NCBI GenBank assembly: GCA_016182795.1
Contig: JACPFW010000006.1
Coordinates: forward strand, 1-64,000
DNA from: Gemmatimonadota bacterium
Lineage (GTDB): Bacteria; Gemmatimonadota; Gemmatimonadetes; Gemmatimonadales; Gemmatimonadaceae
Length of the DNA stretch: 64,000 bases
Direction: 5' to 3'
The notes beneath the pieces are model-generated. The model was not told the origin of the DNA, ran no database searches, and worked only from the letters and a program-made list of their open reading frames with translations. Every line of letters starts with the position of its first letter. The first letter of the stretch is position 1. A program made the position numbers and the translations under genes. This document shows, piece after piece, positions 41,665 through 50,219 of the stretch.

Positions 41665-43413
41665 CTACAGCTCTACGACCGCATCCGCCAGCGCGCGCAC
41701 TGCGTCGCGATGTGTGCAGAATACGACGGTGCAGCGCCCGCGCAGGGCGCGCACGGTCTGCAGGATGCGCGCCTCGGTGTCAGCGTCGAGCGCACTGGTC
41801 GCCTCGTCGAGCACGAGCAGCGCTGGCTGACGCAGTAGGGCGCGGGCTAGCGCGAGCCGCTGACGTTCGCCGCCGCTGAGCAGCACGCCGCGATCTCCGA
41901 TCGGCGCGTCGAGCCGCTCCGACAGGCGCTCCACGAAGTCGCACGCCGCATCGCGCAGCGCCGCATTCAGTTCGTCGTCACTGGCGTCGGGGCGCGCAAA
42001 CAACAGGTTCTCTCGAACCGTGCCGTGGAAGAGCATGGGTTCCTGCGCCAGATAGCCCACGCGTGCGCGCCACGCCTCCGCCGAGAGCGCCGCCAACGGC
42101 GCCCCATCCACGAGCACCGCGCCCGACTCCGGGACGAGCAACCCCAGCAGCACGTCGGCGAGCGTGGTTTTGCCGGCCCCGGTTGCGCCGATCACGGCCG
42201 TGACCGCCCCCGCGGGGAACCGTGCCGTGCGGTCACGGAGCACCGGACGTTCGCCAACGGCATACCGCACCGTGATCGCGCGCACCTCCAATTGCGGCGC
42301 CGGTGGCACCGTCGGCGTCGTTCCGTGCAGCGCCGGAATCGCCGAGCGCGAGTTCGTCGCCATCGTCGCACTGGCGGCGTTGTGGCGAATCGCGCTCTCC
42401 GCGCGCGCCGCGTCGCACCGCTGGAGCAACGCCGAAAGGGACGCGAAGGACGCCAATGCCTGCGTCAAGGCGCTCCACGCGGACTGCATCTCCGCCAGTC
42501 GCGGGACGAGGCGCGCGTAGATCAATAGCATCAGCAGCAGGGTCGCCGGCGCCGCCTGCGCCACCGCAACTGCTATCCAGACCAGGACCGCCAGCAGAAG
42601 CACACTCAGCACCGCAAACGCCAGCGCCACAACGGCGCGCCGACGCGAGAAGTCCCGGGACAGCTGCAGCCAGGCGCGGATATCGGCGGCGACGGCGCGC
42701 ACCGCCCGCTCCTCGGCCGCGTACGCGTGAATCATCTTCATCGCACCCAACAATTCGTTGGCCCGGGCGGCGGCGGCGATCGATGCGTGGAGTAGTTGGT
42801 CTGCCTCGGCGCGCCCGGGTGCACGCAACAGATGCGCCAGAAGAAGCAGCGCCACGCCCACGAGCGCCACGACGGCCGTGAGCGCCGGCGCCACCGTCAC
42901 GGCCACCACGGCGGCGGCGGTGACCGCCGCCGCCATCGACGCAAATTCGAGCAGCAGCATCACGGCGCTTTGCACGTCATCGACCTGCGGACCGAGCGCG
43001 TGCGCCAGCGCGGCCGGACGCTCGCCGGTGAAGCGCGCCCATGGTAGACGCACAATCGCATCGAACAGTCGGCCATGAAGACGCCCCACGACGGATGCCT
43101 CGAGACGCGTCGTCCATTCGGCCAGGAGGAACTGCAGCGCGGCGCGCGCGGTCACCACGAGCACCACGGCAGCAAGCACGCCAACCAGTGTCGGTGCGAT
43201 GCCAATGACGCGCAGGCCCTCCTCGATGGCGGAGGCTACCCGGTCCGAGGTTCCCTCGTTCAACGCCACGCCCGCCAGTCGCAACATCGGCAGGAGCAGA
43301 AGCAGGCCGGCACCCTCGGTGAGGGAGAGCGCCAGTGTCGTCACCGCAAGGGCGACCATGGCGCGGCGATGCTTCGCCCACAGCGCCCGCACGAAGGGAC
43401 GCAACGCAGTCAT
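41665..43413 (-). CDS. ABC transporter (permease-ATPase), lasso peptide exporter (D protein)
   Basis: The ATG at 43413 overlaps the stop of the nucleotidyltransferase gene as ATGA; the frame upstream of it is a shadow. The resulting 582-residue protein has an N-terminal six-helix transmembrane domain (residues about 15-300) with DAIVRLPWARFTGERPAAL, then an ATPase: Walker A VIGATGAGKTTLADVLLGLL, signature LLSGGERQRLALARALL, Walker B LLVLDEATSALD, and the CTHRD switch. It is an exporter-type half-transporter that probably dimerises. In lasso clusters of the ABC type it exports and confers immunity to the product. It is the last gene of the leftward locus. Confidence 0.9.
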   Translation of the reverse strand: MTALRPFVRALWAKHRRAMVALAVTTLALSLTEGAGLLLLLPMLRLAGVALNEGTSDRVASAIEEGLRVIGIAPTLVGVLAAVVLVVTARAALQFLLAEWTTRLEASVVGRLHGRLFDAIVRLPWARFTGERPAALAHALGPQVDDVQSAVMLLLEFASMAAAVTAAAVVAVTVAPALTAVVALVGVALLLLAHLLRAPGRAEADQLLHASIAAAARANELLGAMKMIHAYAAEERAVRAVAADIRAWLQLSRDFSRRRAVVALAFAVLSVLLLAVLVWIAVAVAQAAPATLLLMLLIYARLVPRLAEMQSAWSALTQALASFASLSALLQRCDAARAESAIRHNAASATMATNSRSAIPALHGTTPTVPPAPQLEVRAITVRYAVGERPVLRDRTARFPAGAVTAVIGATGAGKTTLADVLLGLLVPESGAVLVDGAPLAALSAEAWRARVGYLAQEPMLFHGTVRENLLFARPDASDDELNAALRDAACDFVERLSERLDAPIGDRGVLLSGGERQRLALARALLRQPALLVLDEATSALDADTEARILQTVRALRGRCTVVFCTHRDAVRALADAVVEL

Positions 43414-44555
43414 CCGGATCGCCGTCCCATCGCGTGCCACATCAGGCGGTACGCACGCACCGCGTAGGACAGCAGCAGCCAGCGGTCCGGAAGGTGGACG
43501 GCATCGAGGTCCCTGGGCGTCGGCAGCGCCGCGGCGAGCGCGAGATATCGCAGCTTCGCGAGCACGCCATCTTGCCACCGCAAATCGTACCGCGGTTCAG
43601 AATCGCCGCCGACTATGTCCGTCGCACGCGCCTCACGATGACGCGCGACAATCGCGGCGGCGAGGAGGACGGCCGCGCGATCCCCCCGCGCCGCGACTTC
43701 CACGCGACGCGGGAGTGGGACGCCGGCGATCGCCTGTGCGACGAGCGCTGCGTAGAGGACCGCTCGCCGCACTCCCCACCCTCGCGCTCGTGCGAGATAC
43801 GCGTCCCAGTCGAAGTCTGGACGGTCGACGGCCGCGGAATAGTCGACCACCCACAGTAGGAGCCGCCACGCGTGCTTCACGCCGTGCAGGGCGAGAAGGA
43901 CCGCGAGGTCTGTCTGGTCCGGCACCTCGACGCGGCTTCCACCGAGCGAGCATGCCCGCGTGCGGGCCAGAAGCGCTTCGGGGTCGCCGGGCCCACCGTA
44001 CCGAGCGGCCAGACAGCGCCAATGCAGCTCGACGGGCAACCCATCGCCGCGCACCCGGTGCATCACGCCCTCCCACCGCGAATAGAAGTGCTCGGCGCGC
44101 TCGGTGAGGCCTGGGGGCTGAGCATATCCCGCGTCGCCGATCGCGCGCAACGCGCGGTCGATGTCGCGCCGAGCCACCAGGATGTCGAGGTCGCAGAACC
44201 TCCGAGCCGTCAGATCGCCGTGAAGATCGATGGCGAGTGACGGTCCCTTGTAAGCAGCGGCGCGAATGCCGGCCTCTCGCATGACAGTCATCAACGAGAG
44301 GAGCTGCTGCGCGCCGGCCAGGGCGCCGAGGGCCTGCGCCCGCATCGATTCTGCGATGGCGCCGTGCACTTCGTCGGGCGCCGAGGCCGGAAGCGCCCTG
44401 GCAACCCACCACACCACGTCCTGCTCCTGGGCCAGGCGCAGCACCGCCGACCAGTCGCGCACGGCCGCAGCGGCCTCTGCCGCACCACCCGCCTCGGCAT
44501 CACGCCGCAACGCCGCGTGCACGAAGGCGATGGAGGTCGACGGCAGGATGGTCAT
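43410..44555 (-). CDS. Nucleotidyltransferase family protein (PF14907-like) of the lasso locus
   Basis: The ATG at 44555 (MTILPSTSIAFVHAALRRDAE) gives 381 residues; a GTG at 44657 would extend it over the kinase stop. The core AAAYKGPSLAIDLHGDLTARRFCDLDILVARRDIDRAL is the nucleotidyltransferase-fold signature: Lys-Gly-Pro before the helix and the D-L-D metal acids (RFCDLDILV). VELHWRC supplies a conserved third element. Uncharacterised nucleotidyltransferases of this type accompany kinase-containing lasso peptide clusters. It may attach a nucleotide, or extend a phosphate, on the product. It lies between the kinase and exporter and is ATGA-coupled to the exporter. Confidence 0.82.
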   Translation of the reverse strand: MTILPSTSIAFVHAALRRDAEAGGAAEAAAAVRDWSAVLRLAQEQDVVWWVARALPASAPDEVHGAIAESMRAQALGALAGAQQLLSLMTVMREAGIRAAAYKGPSLAIDLHGDLTARRFCDLDILVARRDIDRALRAIGDAGYAQPPGLTERAEHFYSRWEGVMHRVRGDGLPVELHWRCLAARYGGPGDPEALLARTRACSLGGSRVEVPDQTDLAVLLALHGVKHAWRLLLWVVDYSAAVDRPDFDWDAYLARARGWGVRRAVLYAALVAQAIAGVPLPRRVEVAARGDRAAVLLAAAIVARHREARATDIVGGDSEPRYDLRWQDGVLAKLRYLALAAALPTPRDLDAVHLPDRWLLLSYAVRAYRLMWHAMGRRSG

Positions 44556-44631
44556 GCAGGGAAGATGCGGCGCGAACGGGCTGGGGGGAACGACTCCGCC
44601 AACGCCGGAAATGACGCGACTGCGACCCGCC

Positions 44632-45591
44632 TCAGCGGCCGTTCGCCACCGTCGCACGAATCAGCTGCACCATCGCCGGCAAGCGCTCGGGCGTCGCGTG
44701 GGGAACCACACGACGCAGGTGCCGGCCCCGTAGCAGGGCGCTCAGCAGGCGCATCTCTTCCCCGCGCATGCGGTCGTCGAGCAAGTAGTTCGCGTAGGTG
44801 TTCGCGACCAGTTCGACGAACCCGTCCAATGACGAGAGCGGCTCGACGAACGGCGCGCGCGGATTGTCGCGTCGCGGGGCGAGGACGAAGAGCGCGCCAA
44901 GCGGCGCAGGACGGTCATGGAAGGGAAACGCCGCGCCGAGCGGGAGGGCGCGCTTGTCCCACGTCGGCGTGAGCAGGGGCAGTCGTCCGGTGGTGCCAAA
45001 GAGAATCTGCTCGGACGCATCCCACAGGCGCAGCAACCGATAGGCGGGATAGGCGCATGGCACGCCGTCGGTGATCCGCACGGCGACGACGTCATCCGAC
45101 ATGACGGGCGTGCCGGCCGCGGCGAATGCCGCCGCCGTCGTCGACTTCCCCGCGCCCGACGGCCCGATGAGCAGCGTGGCACGACCGTCCAGGAGCACGG
45201 CGCTCGCGTGCAACGCCAGCACGCCGCGACGACGCAACGCAAAACCGAGCACCGGTCCCAGGAGGTACGTCGCGGTGTCCTCAAGCGTCGAAGCGGCTGC
45301 CCACCAGCAACTGATGGTTGAGGCCGAGGGATCGATCACGAACTGCGTGCCGTCGGCGTACTCGAAGCGGTAGCCGCGTGTTGCATCCAGCCGGACGCGC
45401 ATCGACGGCGAGCCGTCGGTTTCCTGTCCCGCCGTGTAGTACGGTGCGGCGGACGTCCATTCGCCGCGCGGCTGCCCGACGCCCTCCATGGAGATCTCGA
45501 TGTCGACGGTCGCGCCGGGCGCAGCCGTTGCGAGCCCATGGAGCGTGTGCGCACAACGCACCACGAGTCCATACAGGGCGTAGTCAGGCAC
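44632..45591 (-). CDS. HPr-kinase-like peptide kinase of the lasso locus (PadeK-like)
   Basis: The GTG at 45591 overlaps the cyclase stop by 8 bases and gives 319 residues. After an N-terminal beta-rich half, ALHASAVLLDGRATLLIGPSGAGKSTTAAA holds the P-loop (residues 143-151). Next comes the acidic pair of VMSDDVVAVR (165-167), the HprK layout. In the paeninodin lasso cluster a related kinase (PadeK) phosphorylates the C-terminal serine hydroxyl of the precursor. Here all three precursors end in Thr, which could accept phosphate in the same way. The kinase is not preceded by HPr or other PTS genes, supporting a peptide substrate. The substrate is inferred. Confidence 0.85.
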   Translation of the reverse strand: MPDYALYGLVVRCAHTLHGLATAAPGATVDIEISMEGVGQPRGEWTSAAPYYTAGQETDGSPSMRVRLDATRGYRFEYADGTQFVIDPSASTISCWWAAASTLEDTATYLLGPVLGFALRRRGVLALHASAVLLDGRATLLIGPSGAGKSTTAAAFAAAGTPVMSDDVVAVRITDGVPCAYPAYRLLRLWDASEQILFGTTGRLPLLTPTWDKRALPLGAAFPFHDRPAPLGALFVLAPRRDNPRAPFVEPLSSLDGFVELVANTYANYLLDDRMRGEEMRLLSALLRGRHLRRVVPHATPERLPAMVQLIRATVANGR

Positions 45592-47350
45592 GGCGGCCCT
45601 CCTCGCGCATCAGCCAGGCGTCCACCTGCAGAACGCGCCAGGCATCGAGGACGTCGTACGCGGACCCGACCTTCAACACCTCGCGCACCGTCGCGATGTC
45701 CACCCATTCGGCGACGCACTCCGAAATCGGCGTGTCGGCACCGCCCGCGGCGCGCCACTGCGCGACGCGCGCCTCGATATAGCCGTCAAGCGCCGTCTTC
45801 GGACGTGCGAGCACCTCGGCTGGCAGCGCATCACGCATCGCGCGACGAAACAACTGCTTGTCCTGGCACCATGGCACCGGAGGAATGGCAAACACGAACT
45901 CCAACAGCCGCGGATCCGTGAGCGGCAGCGTGAAGAGAACCGACGCGCGTGTCGTCGACGGCTCGAACGCCTCGTGCAAGGCGTCCCATTGAGGCGAACT
46001 GAGCGCCCGCGTGGTGAGCGGTCGCGTCGGGTGATCGCGGCGGGGACGCGGCGGCGGCGGCGGACGGCGAAGCCAGGGTGTCCGCAACGCCGGCGCCGCA
46101 CCCCGCAGTCGCGCGACGCGCTGGCGCCACTCCAGCCCCATCCAGGGCCATCGCCCCGCCGTCCCCCGATAGCGGAGCCACGCGCCGACGACTTCATGCA
46201 GCGGCTGCGTGCGAATCTGCCGCCACAACGTCGGCGCCCGTAGCAGCGTGTCACCGTCCTCACCGAAGATGGCCACCGGGGCGCTCCGCGCCGCGACCTC
46301 GGCACCGACGCGAAGGCCCGCGAGATCCGGTTCGTCAAGCGGCTGCGCCGGCATCCTGCCTGGTGTCGCGAGATAGGCGAGCGCGGGTCCGGCATCGTCG
46401 TCGACAAGCGTCTGCCCGATCCCGAGGCGCGTCGCGATTGCCGCGGAGAGGCGGTCGTCGTCACTCGGCGCGAGCGTCGGCTGCACCACCGTGAGCGCAT
46501 GCAGCGGCACCGATGGGGCCAGACGCCGCGCGGTCACCGCCAGCGTGGACGAGTCCATCCCCCCACTCAGGAAGATCGTCGCGTCGCCGCCGCGCAGGCG
46601 ATCAGCAACCACCTCATCGAGGGTCTCGGTGAACTGCGCGAGGCACTCCTCCTCTCGCGCGAAGCGAAGCGGCGCCGGCTCCGGGAAGGACCAGTGACGC
46701 TGCAGCCGAACCGGCGCGCGATCCGAGAGCACGAGCGTGTGCCCGGCCGGCACGCGATGCACGTCCCGCAGCGCCGTCGCCTCTGCGCGCTCGATCCAGC
46801 CGTGATGCAGTATGCTGCCGATCGACTCCGCGTCCCTCGCCGGCGACAACGCGGGGAGCATGCGCACGATATCGACCGACGAGCCGAGGGCCACGACCGA
46901 GCCGACGCGCCCCCAGTACAGTTGACGGTTGCCCAGCGGGTCGCGCGCCGCGATCAGTTGGCGGCGCGACCGGTCCCAAACGACAATCGCGTAGTCGCCC
47001 AACAGCCGCTCGGCAACGCGGTCGGACCATCGGCGTGCGGCGTGCGCCACCAGTTCCGCGTCGGTCGACGACGCCGACACTGTCGCGCCATCGGAGGCGA
47101 GCCGCCTCCGCAGCTCGCGCTGGGCATCGATCCGCAGCGCGCCGGCCACCACCAGCGCGCCGGAAACCAGCGGGAGTGCGTTGTCGTAGGCCGGCGCCCG
47201 CGTATCGGCCACCTGCGCGACCGCAATCTCGCCAAGCACGTGCTGGCTCTGGCGACCTTGCACGGCCGCCAGCGGCCGCGTCATCCGGTGGATGGCGTCA
47301 GCGGCGAGCGGAGCTAGCGAGAGGTCGACTAACGCGCCGAACGCGAGCAA
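45584..47350 (-). CDS. Lasso peptide cyclase (asparagine-synthetase-like C protein)
   Basis: The start is a TTG at 47350, with GAGGA 7 bases upstream, giving 588 residues. The N-terminal half is the glutamine-amidotransferase fold, but without the Cys2 nucleophile of true AsnB (it begins LAFGALVDLS), while LGDYAIVVWDRSRRQLIAARDPLGNRQLYW is kept. The ATP pyrophosphatase half has the PP-loop TIFLSGGMDSSTLAVTARRL and IFGEDGDTLL, and ends with KQLFRRAMRDALPAEVLARPKTALDGY. Lasso cyclases of this kind adenylate the Asp/Glu side chain of the core and form the macrolactam with the N-terminal amine. It lies directly after the three precursor genes and before the kinase. Confidence 0.9.
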   Translation of the reverse strand: MLAFGALVDLSLAPLAADAIHRMTRPLAAVQGRQSQHVLGEIAVAQVADTRAPAYDNALPLVSGALVVAGALRIDAQRELRRRLASDGATVSASSTDAELVAHAARRWSDRVAERLLGDYAIVVWDRSRRQLIAARDPLGNRQLYWGRVGSVVALGSSVDIVRMLPALSPARDAESIGSILHHGWIERAEATALRDVHRVPAGHTLVLSDRAPVRLQRHWSFPEPAPLRFAREEECLAQFTETLDEVVADRLRGGDATIFLSGGMDSSTLAVTARRLAPSVPLHALTVVQPTLAPSDDDRLSAAIATRLGIGQTLVDDDAGPALAYLATPGRMPAQPLDEPDLAGLRVGAEVAARSAPVAIFGEDGDTLLRAPTLWRQIRTQPLHEVVGAWLRYRGTAGRWPWMGLEWRQRVARLRGAAPALRTPWLRRPPPPPRPRRDHPTRPLTTRALSSPQWDALHEAFEPSTTRASVLFTLPLTDPRLLEFVFAIPPVPWCQDKQLFRRAMRDALPAEVLARPKTALDGYIEARVAQWRAAGGADTPISECVAEWVDIATVREVLKVGSAYDVLDAWRVLQVDAWLMREEGRRA

Positions 47351-47392
47351 TCAGATTCCTCAAGTCGAGCCGCCGCGCCGTCGCGGCCGGAC

Positions 47393-47569
47393 TCAGGTCC
47401 GACGTTTGGGAAATTTGCCGCCGTCGTTTCTGCCGGAGTTGTCAACGGCGGCCGTCAGCTTGGCGACTGATCCTAAGCGCTTCAATCGTGGCGTGACCCA
47501 CGGGGACCGCTTTGCAGCCTTCTTGTCGTCGGGAACAGCGGTTGGGGGAGAAGTGGCAGGCCGGTCCAT
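47393..47569 (-). CDS. Lasso-type precursor peptide 1
   Basis: The ATG at 47569, with GGAGG 10 bases upstream, gives 58 residues; an upstream frame extension is not supported. The leader holds W24-x2-P27-x-L29-x3-G33-x5-T39, the motif bound by PqqD-like B1 proteins. Cutting two residues after T39's position, by lasso convention (Thr at -2), leaves an 18-residue core AVDNSGRNDGGKFPKRRT. Ala1 to Asp9 would form a nine-residue ring, and Phe13 is a candidate plug. It is 42 bases upstream of the cyclase. The cleavage site and ring are inferred, not shown. Confidence 0.85.
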   Translation of the reverse strand: MDRPATSPPTAVPDDKKAAKRSPWVTPRLKRLGSVAKLTAAVDNSGRNDGGKFPKRRT

Positions 47570-47585
47570 ACAGGTCGAGCCTCCG

Positions 47586-47607
47586 GTGGAGCGTGCGTCC
47601 GCTCCAC
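47586..47607 (-). promoter_or_regulatory. Hairpin adjoining the ribosome-binding site of precursor 1
   Basis: On the transcript, GUGGAGCG pairs with CGCUCCAC (8 bp, 6-base loop). The hairpin ends one base before the GGAGG ribosome-binding site (47584-47580). An almost identical sequence precedes precursor 2. It may control initiation or mRNA stability, or simply mark duplication. Confidence 0.55.
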
Positions 47608-47705
47608 TCTTGGGTGATACGGCATCGCCGACACAGCGACGATGATTGGGATGCGTGCCGACGAATGGTGAGCCGGCAAAACGAGGGCTGAGCGGGGCGT
47701 CGCGA

Positions 47706-47879
47706 TCAGGTGCGGCGCTTGGGCCACTTGCCACCGTCGTTCTTGCCCACCGTGTCGACCTTCGTGGTCAGCGCGGCCACGGTGCCCAGTCGCTGGAGCT
47801 CGGGAGCTGCCCAAGGCACGCGAGCCGAGGCGCTCGCGTCCGAGGCAGCCGCTGTTCGCGTCGTTGCAGGCCTGTTCAT
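47706..47879 (-). CDS. Lasso-type precursor peptide 2
   Basis: The ATG at 47879, with GGAGG 9 bases upstream, gives 57 residues. A 14-residue extension to 47921 is open, but the internal start has the conserved context shared with precursor 1. The leader has W23-x2-P26-x-L28-x3-G32-x5-T38. The predicted core is KVDTVGKNDGGKWPKRRT with Asp9 as ring acid. N-terminal MNRPATT resembles MDRPATS of precursor 1, so these two are recent duplicates. Lys at core position 1 is unusual for lasso peptides, which more often start with Gly, Ala, Ser or Cys. Confidence 0.85.
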   Translation of the reverse strand: MNRPATTRTAAASDASASARVPWAAPELQRLGTVAALTTKVDTVGKNDGGKWPKRRT

Positions 47880-47893
47880 TTCGCTTGAGCCTC

Positions 47894-47917
47894 CTGCGGA
47901 GCGTGCGTCCGCTCCAC
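47894..47917 (-). promoter_or_regulatory. Hairpin adjoining the ribosome-binding site of precursor 2
   Basis: GGAGCG-TGCGTC-CGCTCC (47897-47914) forms a 6-bp stem with the same loop as the copy before precursor 1, and lies directly upstream (in the transcript) of GGAGG at 47893-47889. The shared block of about 30 bases shows that the leader region was duplicated with the gene. Confidence 0.5.
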
Positions 47918-48018
47918 ACAAAGATAATGCGTCATCCGACCGCCAGTTCGCGGTAGGCGCGCAATGCCGTGGCTTTCCATGGCATCACACCCCGAGTAGG
48001 GGATTCGCGTCTCGCGCT

Positions 48019-48192
48019 TCAGGTACGACGCCTGGGAAACCTGCCGCCGTCGTTCCTTCCTCGATTGTCCACCTTGGAGGTGAGGGAGGTGACACTCCCA
48101 AGCCGGAGGAGTTCCGGCGGCAGCCAGGTCTCCGATCGACCCCGCTCACAGGCGGAATCATCCTTCTGTTCGTCGTTCAAGCTGTGTTCCAT
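48019..48192 (-). CDS. Lasso-type precursor peptide 3 (short gene, easily missed)
   Basis: The ATG at 48192 has GAGGTG about 9 bases upstream. Translation gives 57 residues. The leader is Asp/Glu-rich (MEHSLNDEQKDDSACERGRS) and holds W23-x2-P26-x-L28-x3-G32-x5-T38. The core is KVDNRGRNDGGRFPRRRT (residues 40-57), with Asp48 at core position 9. It is the most diverged leader of the three but keeps V2, D3, G6, N8, D9, G10, G11, P14, R16, R17 and T18. It is the first precursor in transcription order, between the methyltransferase and precursor 2. It does not share the hairpin of the other two. Confidence 0.85.
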   Translation of the reverse strand: MEHSLNDEQKDDSACERGRSETWLPPELLRLGSVTSLTSKVDNRGRNDGGRFPRRRT

Positions 48193-48314
48193 AAGCCGGA
48201 CACCTCAATGTGGACGCCGTCCTATATGTGCAAGATACAAGGAAACGCGCTCGCTGACCACGACATCAGGCAGGTCCCTATTCCCAAATAGCGACGGCCA
48301 CCGCAGGGAGCGTC

Positions 48315-49478
48315 TCACAACTTCCGCACGGCCTCTGCCTCAACGGTCATCACAAACTGATGCAGCCACCCCGCCGCGGCACTCTCTGACGAGAAACCCA
48401 ACTGGGGGCTCGCAGCCAGCGCGACGGCGATCTCCCGGTTCGAGCGCAACCCGTCGGCCAGTCCGATGGCAGCCTGCCATCGCAGCCCTTCGCGGCCAAG
48501 CCTCGGTCGGTGCGCGGCAGAAACGAACTCCAGCAGGTACGGGTCCATGCAAATCGACGGCAGGGGCGTCTGGCGCGGCCCGTGCATGCGCGCACCTGCC
48601 TCCCGCTGCGTCCAACTCTCCCACGCCCACGTGTAGTCCGATCCGACTGGCACGGCCCAGAAGCGCAGTCCGAGGCGATCTCCCGCGACGACGGCGAGCG
48701 ACTCTCGGAGCGGAACGCACAGGCAGCCGTGAACGGACTGCGCGGGGCCGGGAGCCGCTGAAAAGCGCTCGCCGCCGCACAGTTCCGCCTCGAACCAGAG
48801 CAGGAAGCCGTCAACCACCTCACCTGCGGAGATCGTCCACTCGCCCACTCCCTCAAAGCTCGGGTCGCTCCGTGTTTCCAACTCGAGCACACCAAGGCAC
48901 TGTCCGGCCGCCGCCAGTCGGCTGACGTCCGGCCTGGCCCCACAAGCTTGGTCGAGCACAAAAGGACGCAGAGCGCCCAGGTCGACCCCGTGCGGGCGGC
49001 CACGCAGCAAGTCGCGGTGCGACCGGGAGGCACTCGATTGTCGCGCCGGCGCCGCCCAGACGCGGTCGCGCACGGCGACGAAACGTGCGTCGGGGGTCAG
49101 GTGTCGGGCCCGAGCATCGACAAGCAAGTCGAAGCGCGCCCTGTGAAACGGCAACACGCCTCGCACGTCCTCCACCAGTATGTTGGCACGTTCCGGCAAC
49201 TCGACGTCGCGCGAGTCGGCCTGCAGGAACGTGACGCGGTCAGCGACGCCATTCGCACGGGCCAACGCGGGGCCGAGCGCAATCGCTTCGGACGTCTCGA
49301 CGGCATAGACATGCCGCGCCCCGTAGCATGCGGCGAGAATGGCGAAGTACCCGAATCCCGCTCCCAAGTCGAGGACGATCGACTCCGGCCCGACTACTCG
49401 CTGCAGCGCGCGCGCATACGCGCCCGTGCGAAAGGGGTCGGCAATCATCGCCAGGTAGCCCTCGAGCGAGTAACTCAT
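48315..49478 (-). CDS. PRMT-like SAM-dependent methyltransferase of the lasso locus
   Basis: The ATG at 49478 overlaps the B2 stop (ATGA), giving 387 residues. SAM motif I is VLDLGAGFGYFAILAACYGA (residues 35-54), followed by HVYAVETSEA and the ANILVEDVRGVLPFH stretch (98-112). The order and the acidic loop resemble protein arginine methyltransferases more than carboxyl methyltransferases. The C-terminal 240 residues form a PRMT-style beta-barrel-like part with no recognised domain, ending in a helical tail. Its place between B2 and the precursors, whose tails hold two or three adjacent arginines, suggests arginine methylation of the peptide. A C-terminal ester is the alternative. Confidence 0.78.
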   Translation of the reverse strand: MSYSLEGYLAMIADPFRTGAYARALQRVVGPESIVLDLGAGFGYFAILAACYGARHVYAVETSEAIALGPALARANGVADRVTFLQADSRDVELPERANILVEDVRGVLPFHRARFDLLVDARARHLTPDARFVAVRDRVWAAPARQSSASRSHRDLLRGRPHGVDLGALRPFVLDQACGARPDVSRLAAAGQCLGVLELETRSDPSFEGVGEWTISAGEVVDGFLLWFEAELCGGERFSAAPGPAQSVHGCLCVPLRESLAVVAGDRLGLRFWAVPVGSDYTWAWESWTQREAGARMHGPRQTPLPSICMDPYLLEFVSAAHRPRLGREGLRWQAAIGLADGLRSNREIAVALAASPQLGFSSESAAAGWLHQFVMTVEAEAVRKL

Positions 49479-49936
49479 GCCCGAGAATGATCCGGCGCCG
49501 CCTCAAAAGTGACAAGTGGGCGATACGAATCGAGATCGACGCGAGATCCGGTGACCATCACTCCCGCGCTCACCGTCCAGGCGTGCGCGTTGAGGCTGGA
49601 CGCGCCAGGTCCTTCGCCTGGCGCGACGCCGATCGTCAGGCGGACCGGCAGCTCATGGCGACGTAAAATGACCTCGGCAGCGAGCGCCCGGGCCAGACAG
49701 GTGCTGCCCGGAACAAACGGGGTCGCCCGCGCCACCGCGCGACGGACATCGAGCGGCGACACGCCCCCGGTCGTGGAACGAGCGCCGCGGGTCGACCATC
49801 GGTCGATGATTACACGCACGCGTCGGAACGGGAGGACGGCCAGCGTCAGACGCGTGCTGGCCAGTGTGGCGAGTGCCGACAGCGCGAGCCGCCGGTCCTG
49901 CGCCGGCAACTTTGCGAACCTAGCCAACCGGCGCAT
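49475..49936 (-). CDS. Lasso leader peptidase (transglutaminase-like B2 protein)
   Basis: The 153-residue protein is the stand-alone transglutaminase-like protease of split-B lasso systems. Catalytic Cys80 lies in FVPGSTCLARALAAEVILRR and the His118 partner in SLNAHAWTVS, the family pattern. It should cut the leader two residues after the conserved Thr. Its start overlaps the B1 gene by 17 bases, and its stop overlaps the methyltransferase start. It is cytoplasmic, with no membrane helix. Confidence 0.9.
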   Translation of the reverse strand: MRRLARFAKLPAQDRRLALSALATLASTRLTLAVLPFRRVRVIIDRWSTRGARSTTGGVSPLDVRRAVARATPFVPGSTCLARALAAEVILRRHELPVRLTIGVAPGEGPGASSLNAHAWTVSAGVMVTGSRVDLDSYRPLVTFEAAPDHSRA

Positions 49937-50219
49937 TCTGTCGGTTCACCAAGCCACTTTCGAACAGCTCGGCTGCGAAGGCGAGTACATCGGCCTCGCA
50001 CGTCGGGGCGTCCACCTCGTACTCGTCCGCCAGGATGGCGACGACTTCGGCGAGCCGGCGAGGCTGCTGCAGCAACGCCCAGATGCGAGCACCCACGTCT
50101 CGGACACCGAAGTACGCTCCCTCGCGCATCCCGAGAATCACCGTCTCACCCGAGAGATCGGCTGAAACTTGGTCGGTGGATACAACCAGAACATCATCTA
50201 GCGATAAACGAGTTGCCAT
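49920..50219 (-). CDS. PqqD-family RiPP recognition element (lasso B1 protein)
   Basis: The 99-residue protein has the PqqD fold: a beta hairpin (TVILGMREGAYFGVRDVGARIWALLQQP) followed by the helical bundle (LAEVVAILADEYEVDAPTCEADVLAFAAELFESGLV). Such proteins bind the W/Y-x2-P-x-L leader and deliver precursors to B2 and the cyclase. It is the first gene of the locus. No strong ribosome-binding site is seen before its ATG. It lies 289 bases from the divergent rpsF. Confidence 0.9.
   Translation of the reverse strand: MATRLSLDDVLVVSTDQVSADLSGETVILGMREGAYFGVRDVGARIWALLQQPRRLAEVVAILADEYEVDAPTCEADVLAFAAELFESGLVNRQNAPVG

Follow-up and report, generated by a model that had tools for sequence, protein, structure and literature searches.

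A lasso-type peptide locus of a Gemmatimonadota bacterium combines a peptide kinase and a nucleotidyltransferase with a methyltransferase of predicted protein arginine methyltransferase fold

Published precedents for a kinase and a nucleotidyltransferase in lasso peptide pathways are PadeK, which with ThcoK and SyanK is counted among the paeninodin-related kinases, and PsmN, for which a knockout ties the nucleotidyltransferase to a hexose on the phosphate of pseudomycoidin (PMC9266682; here, as for the other literature referred to, excerpts of the text are the source). In the Bsf system, the kinase BsfK phosphorylates Ser3 of the core, tolerates Thr at this place and works together with B1, and the leader carries Tyr(-17), Pro(-14) and Leu(-12) (PMC10368454). 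The Asp or Glu that closes a lasso ring is placed at core positions 7-9 by a review (PMC9266682), and a 2025 paper on metanodin gives Gly, Cys, Ser, Ala and newly Asn as first core residues and mentions clusters from metagenomes in which B is split and tailoring enzymes appear without names (PMC12670498). Two methyltransferases of lasso peptides appear in reviews, StspM, described by its homology to a mitomycin O-methyltransferase, and LihM, a PIMT homolog. We analyzed a stretch of 64,000 nucleotides from a Gemmatimonadota bacterium (GenBank assembly GCA_016182795.1, contig JACPFW010000006.1, positions 1 to 64,000; hereafter the window), which carries at 41665-50219 a complete lasso-type locus with all genes on the minus strand: B1, B2, a methyltransferase (MT), three precursors, a cyclase (C), an HPrK-like kinase, a PF14907 nucleotidyltransferase (NTF) and an exporter (D). 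The gene set and its leftward order had been proposed in an initial annotation of this DNA and were confirmed.

This locus is best explained, with a probability that we put at roughly 70%, as a phospho-lasso pathway that would have three paralogous precursors, a capped tail and an MT acting on a group other than arginine. The MT gene (48315..49478) encodes a protein of 387 aa with a small helical C-terminal domain. An AlphaFold2 model based on 32 sequences (pLDDT 91.7, pTM 0.80) had yeast HMT1 as its top PDB match in Foldseek (TM 0.86 on the target), and the profile of the MT family matched the protein arginine methyltransferases (PRMTs) PRMT2 and PRMT6 at 2e-53. The modeled fold, Rossmann plus beta-barrel with an S-adenosylmethionine (SAM) motif, is clearly that of a PRMT. 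A PqqD-related (RRE) domain at the C-terminus of the MT was considered: no relevant Pfam family was found in five MT C-terminal segments, and hhalign comparison of 26 such segments with 76 B1 proteins gave 18% probability over 41 columns.

PRMTs are marked by a double-Glu substrate loop and a THW loop. When these positions were taken from the family-profile alignment to PRMTs, the window MT was found to carry Asp104 and Arg113 at the places of the two Glu and SVHG at residues 248-251 at the place of the THW loop. The designation "PRMT-like" in the initial annotation thus held for the fold and failed for the substrate-binding loops, in which both the double Glu and THW are lost. In the MT tree two separate clades, A (SH-aLRT 99) and B (100), were resolved, which suggests two recruitments of the MT into kinase-lasso loci. 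None of the 38 clade A proteins has both Glu and all 38 have Asp at the first place, Arg occupies the place of window Arg106 in 36 of the 38, and HW is absent from all 36 proteins covered by the alignment. The altered clade A loop reads Asp-x-Arg-Gly-x-x-Pro (Asp104 and Arg106 in the window), its new Arg taking the place of the Met in the double-Glu loop of PRMTs. None of the ten clade B proteins has both Glu at the aligned places either, and HW is absent from the nine covered; of the 50 homologs that belong to neither clade, 37 have both Glu and 32 have HW. Many cores also lack Arg (10/32 in clade A and 4/8 in clade B, where 2/8 have neither Arg nor Lys), and no Arg-bearing core was seen in 8 of the 23 clade A loci with precursors, albeit further precursors may be missed. 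With the double Glu and the THW loop missing, and with many cores devoid of Arg, arginine methylation is unlikely as a function shared throughout the clade.

The MT is repeatedly linked to a kinase and a lasso cyclase. Among 298 genomes of the phylum, MT matches were detected in 26 (E ≤ 1e-10) and B2 matches in 92, and 80 loci from the B2 matches were retrieved for comparison. In a scan of genome contigs at least 594 stretches matched the search pattern, 194 encoded a relative and the best 80 were retained; nine loci repeating genomes already included were left out of the MT-homolog counts, the locus table, the MT tree and the loop statistics. The resulting 98 MT homologs, window included, comprise 41 with both cyclase and kinase in the stretch examined, one with a cyclase alone on a short contig, 11 with a kinase alone and 45 with neither. 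The records with MT, cyclase and kinase bear the names Gemmatimonadetes, Acidobacteria, Chloroflexi, Betaproteobacteria, Lysobacter, Myxococcales, Deltaproteobacteria, Rokubacteria, Binataceae and Nitrospira and are mostly metagenome assemblies; in three of the 41 loci (L109, L111 and L118) the MT lies on the opposite strand from the cyclase or the kinase, which makes the linkage doubtful. Since the three genes occur together in 40 other loci under many phylum names, they define a recurrent cluster type, and the idea of a combination peculiar to the window locus had to be abandoned (the NTF was not seen in the examined stretch of all these loci). In the locus table, a kinase is present in 17/17 MT-bearing versus 36/55 MT-less loci (p 0.004), a comparison that is biased, the two groups coming from different searches, and not phylogenetically independent, the MT loci being one clade; locus L205 (MT match E 5e-11) was excluded under a stricter threshold, reducing the MT loci from 18 to 17. 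Distances between MT proteins track those between cyclases (r 0.61, 40 loci), kinases (0.56, 43 loci) and NTFs (0.61, 31 loci), with 0/2000 permutations as high in each case.

Three acceptors were weighed for the MT. The enzyme might be a working Arg or Lys side-chain methyltransferase of the basic tail (KRRT), which would use a PRMT fold with a remodeled pocket. The fold and the profile match speak for this reading, as does the presence of Lys or Arg in 32/32 clade A cores, in 25 of which it stands directly ahead of a Ser or Thr among the last two residues. We nevertheless judge it unlikely: besides the complete loss of both hallmarks in clade A and the cores and loci devoid of Arg, with the proviso on missed precursors given above, basic tails are unchanged in MT-less relatives, and MT-less kinase loci are also basic-tailed (19/31 precursors match the pattern [KR]x?[ST]x?). 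An MT acting on the product of the kinase or the NTF, a phosphate or a sugar, and requiring that substrate, is to us another minority reading. It would account for the kinase found within the stretch examined in 41/42 loci with MT and cyclase, the lone exception being a contig of 4.6 kb, and for the kinase linkage of two separate MT clades despite their differing presumed phosphate sites. The same linkage is however also expected from a common operon type, and no NTF was seen within the stretch examined in 9/30 clade A loci with cyclase and kinase, some of which are cut by contig ends. The MT also weakly resembles the sugar methyltransferase MftM (2.8e-5, 23.6 bits, cut-off 200), but this match covers the general SAM-binding region alone. 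Under the preferred reading, in which arginine has been given up as the substrate, the acceptor would most likely be an oxygen, that of the C-terminal carboxylate or of the phosphate/sugar cap; we hold this assignment tentatively, at somewhat less than even odds. An Asp and an Arg in place of the two Glu would fit an anionic acceptor. PIMT-like aspartimide chemistry as in lihuanodin was considered and rejected, as the clade as a whole has no second conserved Asp: the window cores have Asp3 in common only with the same-genus loci L030, L031, L183 and L206 and with L066 from Acidobacteria.

The kinase (44632..45591) matched HprK_rel_A TIGR04352 at 5.7e-11 (42 bits, below the cut-off of 200) and retains His-Lys-Asp-Asp, a quartet found as HKDD in 41 of the 46 aligned kinases, as HKED in two and as HKDN in one, the remaining two being gapped. 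Its target is likely the C-terminal Thr18, because this is the only hydroxyl residue common to all three window cores; the core of precursor 1 has no other Ser or Thr. Across loci, the ending [KR]x?[ST]x? occurs in 46/75 precursors of kinase loci versus 0/8 from kinase-free lasso loci (Fisher p 0.001, eight being a small sample), and a Ser or Thr stands among the last two residues in 57/75 versus 2/8 (p 0.006). Clade B cores behave otherwise: a Ser or Thr among the two final residues is seen in 0/8, Cys-Leu is the terminus of most, and position 3 is Ser or Thr in 4/8, like in the Bsf peptide. The NTF (43410..44657; its true start may be the internal ATG at 44555) is PsmN-like, with a PF14907 match of 162 bits (1.9e-47, cut-off 31.2) and DxD and KG motifs. 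As judged from sequence, the readings of the locus as lasso-type and of these two genes as kinase and NTF are well supported.

The three precursors lie at 48019..48192 (core KVDNRGRNDGGRFPRRRT), 47706..47879 (core KVDTVGKNDGGKWPKRRT) and 47393..47569 (core AVDNSGRNDGGKFPKRRT). Core starts were set by the leader ruler aromatic(-17)xxPxL; in the window leaders Trp replaces the Tyr of YxxPxL and the spacing is exact in all three. Each of them has Thr at -2, Asp as the ninth core residue and an Arg-Thr terminus. The cores of precursors 1 and 2 begin with Lys, an unusual first residue, and that of precursor 3 with Ala. The precursor search pattern, which demanded a Thr at variable spacing, yielded 89 precursors, six of which were dropped as frame noise, leaving 83 for core statistics. 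By the leader ruler this Thr falls at -2 in 32/32 clade A, 8/8 clade B, 31/31 kinase-only and 8/8 kinase-free precursors. An Asp or Glu is present at core positions 8-10 in 40/44 precursors of MT loci versus 8.9 ± 2.6 in shuffled cores (a count reached in 0/5000 shuffles), in 26/31 from MT-less kinase loci versus 7.2 shuffled, and in 8/8 from kinase-free loci versus 1.9. Of the 32 clade A cores, 21 have the ring acid at position 9, eight (from L033, L035, L036, L040, L041, L046 and L076) at 10, one past the described 7-9, and three at 8; with an acid at position 10, the ring would have ten residues or else the cut site would be shifted. That the product is no threaded lasso, with C closing another amide (on the Lys1 side chain, or as a 10-residue ring in relatives) or an unthreaded macrocycle being formed, is improbable in our view: Lys1 in two window cores and the acid at 10 in 8/32 clade A cores, beyond the 7-9 of the review excerpt, would agree with it, but precursor 3 keeps the same Asp9 spacing with an Ala1 that has no side-chain amine, and C and B2 are closest to lasso families.

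A phospho-lasso pathway could accordingly be drawn for the window in the following way. B1 would bind the leader, and the kinase would phosphorylate Thr18 while the peptide is still linear; the NTF would then cap this phosphate, probably with a hexose by analogy with pseudomycoidin. B2 would cleave one residue past Thr(-2), and C would then form an amide between the N-terminal amine of the core (on Lys or Ala) and Asp9. The product, a ring of nine residues followed by a tail of nine with the terminus Lys/Arg-Arg-Arg-Thr, would be released by the exporter. The MT would supply an optional extra step, having given up arginine binding and methylating another group at the tail end.

Several observations weigh against this interpretation. 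The tail kinases described in the excerpts act on a C-terminal Ser and the window cores end in Thr, and Lys1 in two of the three cores falls outside the residue-1 set named in the excerpt of PMC12670498. Two precursors match lasso models below the cut-off and one not at all. Concerning the MT, 3/38 clade A proteins have Asp at the first place and retain Glu at the second, clade B retains a Glu one residue ahead of the usual second Glu, and none of the 32 clade A cores is without a Lys or Arg, so that a basic side chain might still be the acceptor. The loop change belongs to one main clade and not to many independent events, and an independent-pairs test with six pairs on supported branches gave on average 0.4 pairs in which the loop went with the context, 0.3 against it and 5.3 unchanged. 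An inclusive scenario would have the PRMT fold recruited twice into kinase-bearing lasso pathways with its arginine-binding loops rebuilt each time, the Arg of the larger clade turning a cation pocket into an anion pocket, the phosphorylated lasso tail capped by methylation of carboxylate or phosphate, and a quarter of the clade cores forming 10-residue macrolactam rings; as a whole we consider it rather doubtful. To our knowledge, a PRMT-fold methyltransferase of carboxylate or phosphate would be the first of its kind.

The history of the MT was examined in two trees. The first, of cyclases and kinases, comprised 25 selected loci (16/17 with MT, 9/55 without) and the second 70 usable sequences of the 74 phylum cyclases; L197, which belongs to the same cluster as the contig L039 that carries its MT, stands as MT-less and kinase-less in the locus table and was relabeled as MT-bearing in the 70-cyclase tree. 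In both trees the MT loci fell in one clade (support 100/99 and 100) together with three MT-less loci of the genus of the window, and the three MT changes can be read as a single gain followed by two apparent losses in that genus, one of them in the locus nearest to the window. The three MT-less same-genus genomes (87-94% complete) gave no MT match at 1e-10. This nearest locus, L206, has cores, KVDNKGKNDGGRWPKRRT and AVDNSGRNDGGKGSKRRT, that differ little from the window cores. The methyl step thus seems not to be required, and the core bears no visible trace of it. A search for an MT remnant in L206 gave an unconvincing best tblastn hit (E 0.24 over 22 residues). No core feature tracking the MT was found between MT-bearing and MT-less same-genus relatives.

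The remaining genes fit the lasso assignment to different degrees when compared with family models. B1 (49920..50219), a PqqD-type leader-binding protein (RRE), matched PF05402 at 67 bits and the lasso PqqD model NF033536 at 71.1 bits, below its 80-bit cut-off. The transglutaminase-like leader peptidase B2 (49475..49936), with 74.9 bits to NF033537 (cut-off 33), alone among the locus proteins passed an NCBIfam lasso cut-off; it has both the catalytic Cys and His, which were found in 25/27 aligned B2 proteins, the remaining two being gapped. The AsnB-like macrolactam cyclase C (45584..47350) begins at a TTG, has a residue other than Cys at position 2, carries the motif SGGMDS and matched PF00733 (Asn_synthase) at 1.5e-22; its top NCBIfam model is the lasso cyclase NF033535 at 148 bits, below the cut-off of 525. 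For precursor 1 there were no NCBIfam matches, precursor 2 weakly matched the lasso leader model NF033521 (14.4 bits, cut-off 19) and precursor 3 weakly matched lasso_cyano NF033528 (16.9 bits, cut-off 33) and NF033521 (15.5 bits, cut-off 19). The ABC exporter D (41665..43413) contains PF00664 (ABC_membrane) and PF00005 (ABC_tran); its listed open reading frame runs to 43578 and the start is likely the ATG at 43413, overlapping the NTF stop. Pfam cut-offs were passed by B1, B2, C, the NTF and the exporter; the kinase matched HPrK-related models below cut-off. By protein families, by catalytic residues (His-Lys-Asp-Asp in HPrK, Cys/His in B2, SGGxDS in the cyclase) and by precursor geometry, the lasso type with a paeninodin-like kinase and an NTF proposed at first is supported.

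Genes described at the outset as nearly all overlapping do so in part. B1 and B2 overlap by 17 bases, B2 and the MT as ATGA, C and the kinase by 8 bases, and the NTF with the likely exporter start; the precursors stand free, preceded by gaps of 122, 139 and 136 bases, with a further 42 bases ahead of C. Two identical copies of an 18-base inverted repeat, GGAGCG-GACGCA-CGCTCC, were found at 47898-47915 and 47588-47605, just ahead of the starts of precursors 2 and 3, and the same letters occur ahead of one L206 precursor. Shuffling yielded two matches at ≤3 mismatches in 13/100 cases, and both real copies are exact; they may be part of the precursor gene duplication. A special leader RNA was rejected, folding being at most mildly above shuffled sequence (z -1.85 and -0.91). 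The genome of the window (93% complete) has a single B2 match and one extra, weak MT match (9e-8) elsewhere. The DNA on either side of the cluster, which we take to be ychF and ribosomal S6, also flanks the same-genus clusters of L030, L180 and L183; for L206 this holds for the single side covered.

Further MT homologs were found in settings of their own. Two clade A MTs of Spirulina (L067/L070 and L250/L251) adjoin DUF3172 outside any such locus, and in both genomes cyclase, kinase and a lasso-type precursor ending in PNKTN are on another contig; the MT may work in trans. The MT homologs of L049, L050, L052, L053 and L084, in which the double-Glu loop is changed to the FEDY/FEDF type, are near an HPrK-like gene and without lasso cyclase; a PqqD-like gene is also near in four of these five, and L049 is located about 2 kb from dnaN. 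Clade B loci with a kinase (L091, L103, L104, L112, L116, L121, L124, L128 and L133) come from Rokubacteria, Nitrospira, Binataceae, Deltaproteobacteria and others, and several of the clade B cores are Met-rich. RG repeats are classic PRMT substrates. In a Gemmatimonadetes metagenome-assembled genome (L119, positions 2316-2534, JACDHR010000030.1) a lasso-type leader precedes an RG-repeat core, QGQGRGRGRGRGRGRGGGHS, that lacks an acid; its neighbors are B1, kinase, NTF, exporters and a PRMT-fold MT retaining the double Glu, and this peptide may be genuinely arginine-methylated. In our reading, no other frame in a list of short RG-rich frames from 187 loci has such a lasso-type leader.

In the open-access literature, consulted in part, we found no description of a lasso set with kinase, NTF and PRMT-fold MT, which does not show its absence from print. 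We propose that the window cluster defines a recurrent kind of phospho-lasso locus with a tailoring step for which we found no description, and its relatives with and without MT but with near-identical cores offer a ready natural comparison. Like the paeninodin-type clusters of PadeK, ThcoK and SyanK (PMC9266682), as far as the excerpts describe them, the window has B1, B2, a cyclase, an HPrK-like kinase with His-Lys-Asp-Asp and a C-terminal hydroxyl residue. It differs from them by a C-terminal Thr instead of Ser, three precursors, the PRMT-fold MT, the NTF and its Gemmatimonadota host. With pseudomycoidin (PsmK, PsmN) it shares the kinase and nucleotidyltransferase, and no MT is mentioned in the excerpts on that system. 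The pseudomycoidin core also differs from the window cores. The Bsf cluster of Bradymonas sediminis resembles the window in its A, B1, B2, C, D, K and N set and in a YxxPxL leader of fixed spacing, but has Ile at -2, a phosphate on ring Ser3 and, in the excerpt, a gene list without MT (PMC10368454). The lassomycin-type StspM and lihuanodin-type LihM are, according to the excerpts, SAM-dependent lasso tailoring enzymes like the window MT, which is set apart from both by its predicted PRMT fold with beta-barrel and has no clade-conserved second Asp as an aspartimide site. The closest likeness in fold is to PRMT1, 2 and 6 and yeast HMT1, with which the window MT would share the Rossmann and beta-barrel architecture and the SAM motif; unlike these enzymes it lacks the double-Glu pair and the THW loop and has an Asp-x-Arg-Gly-x-x-Pro loop and a C-terminal helical extension. 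The family seems to have exchanged arginine for a different acceptor with its PRMT fold retained, and labeling such genes as arginine methyltransferases would mislead.

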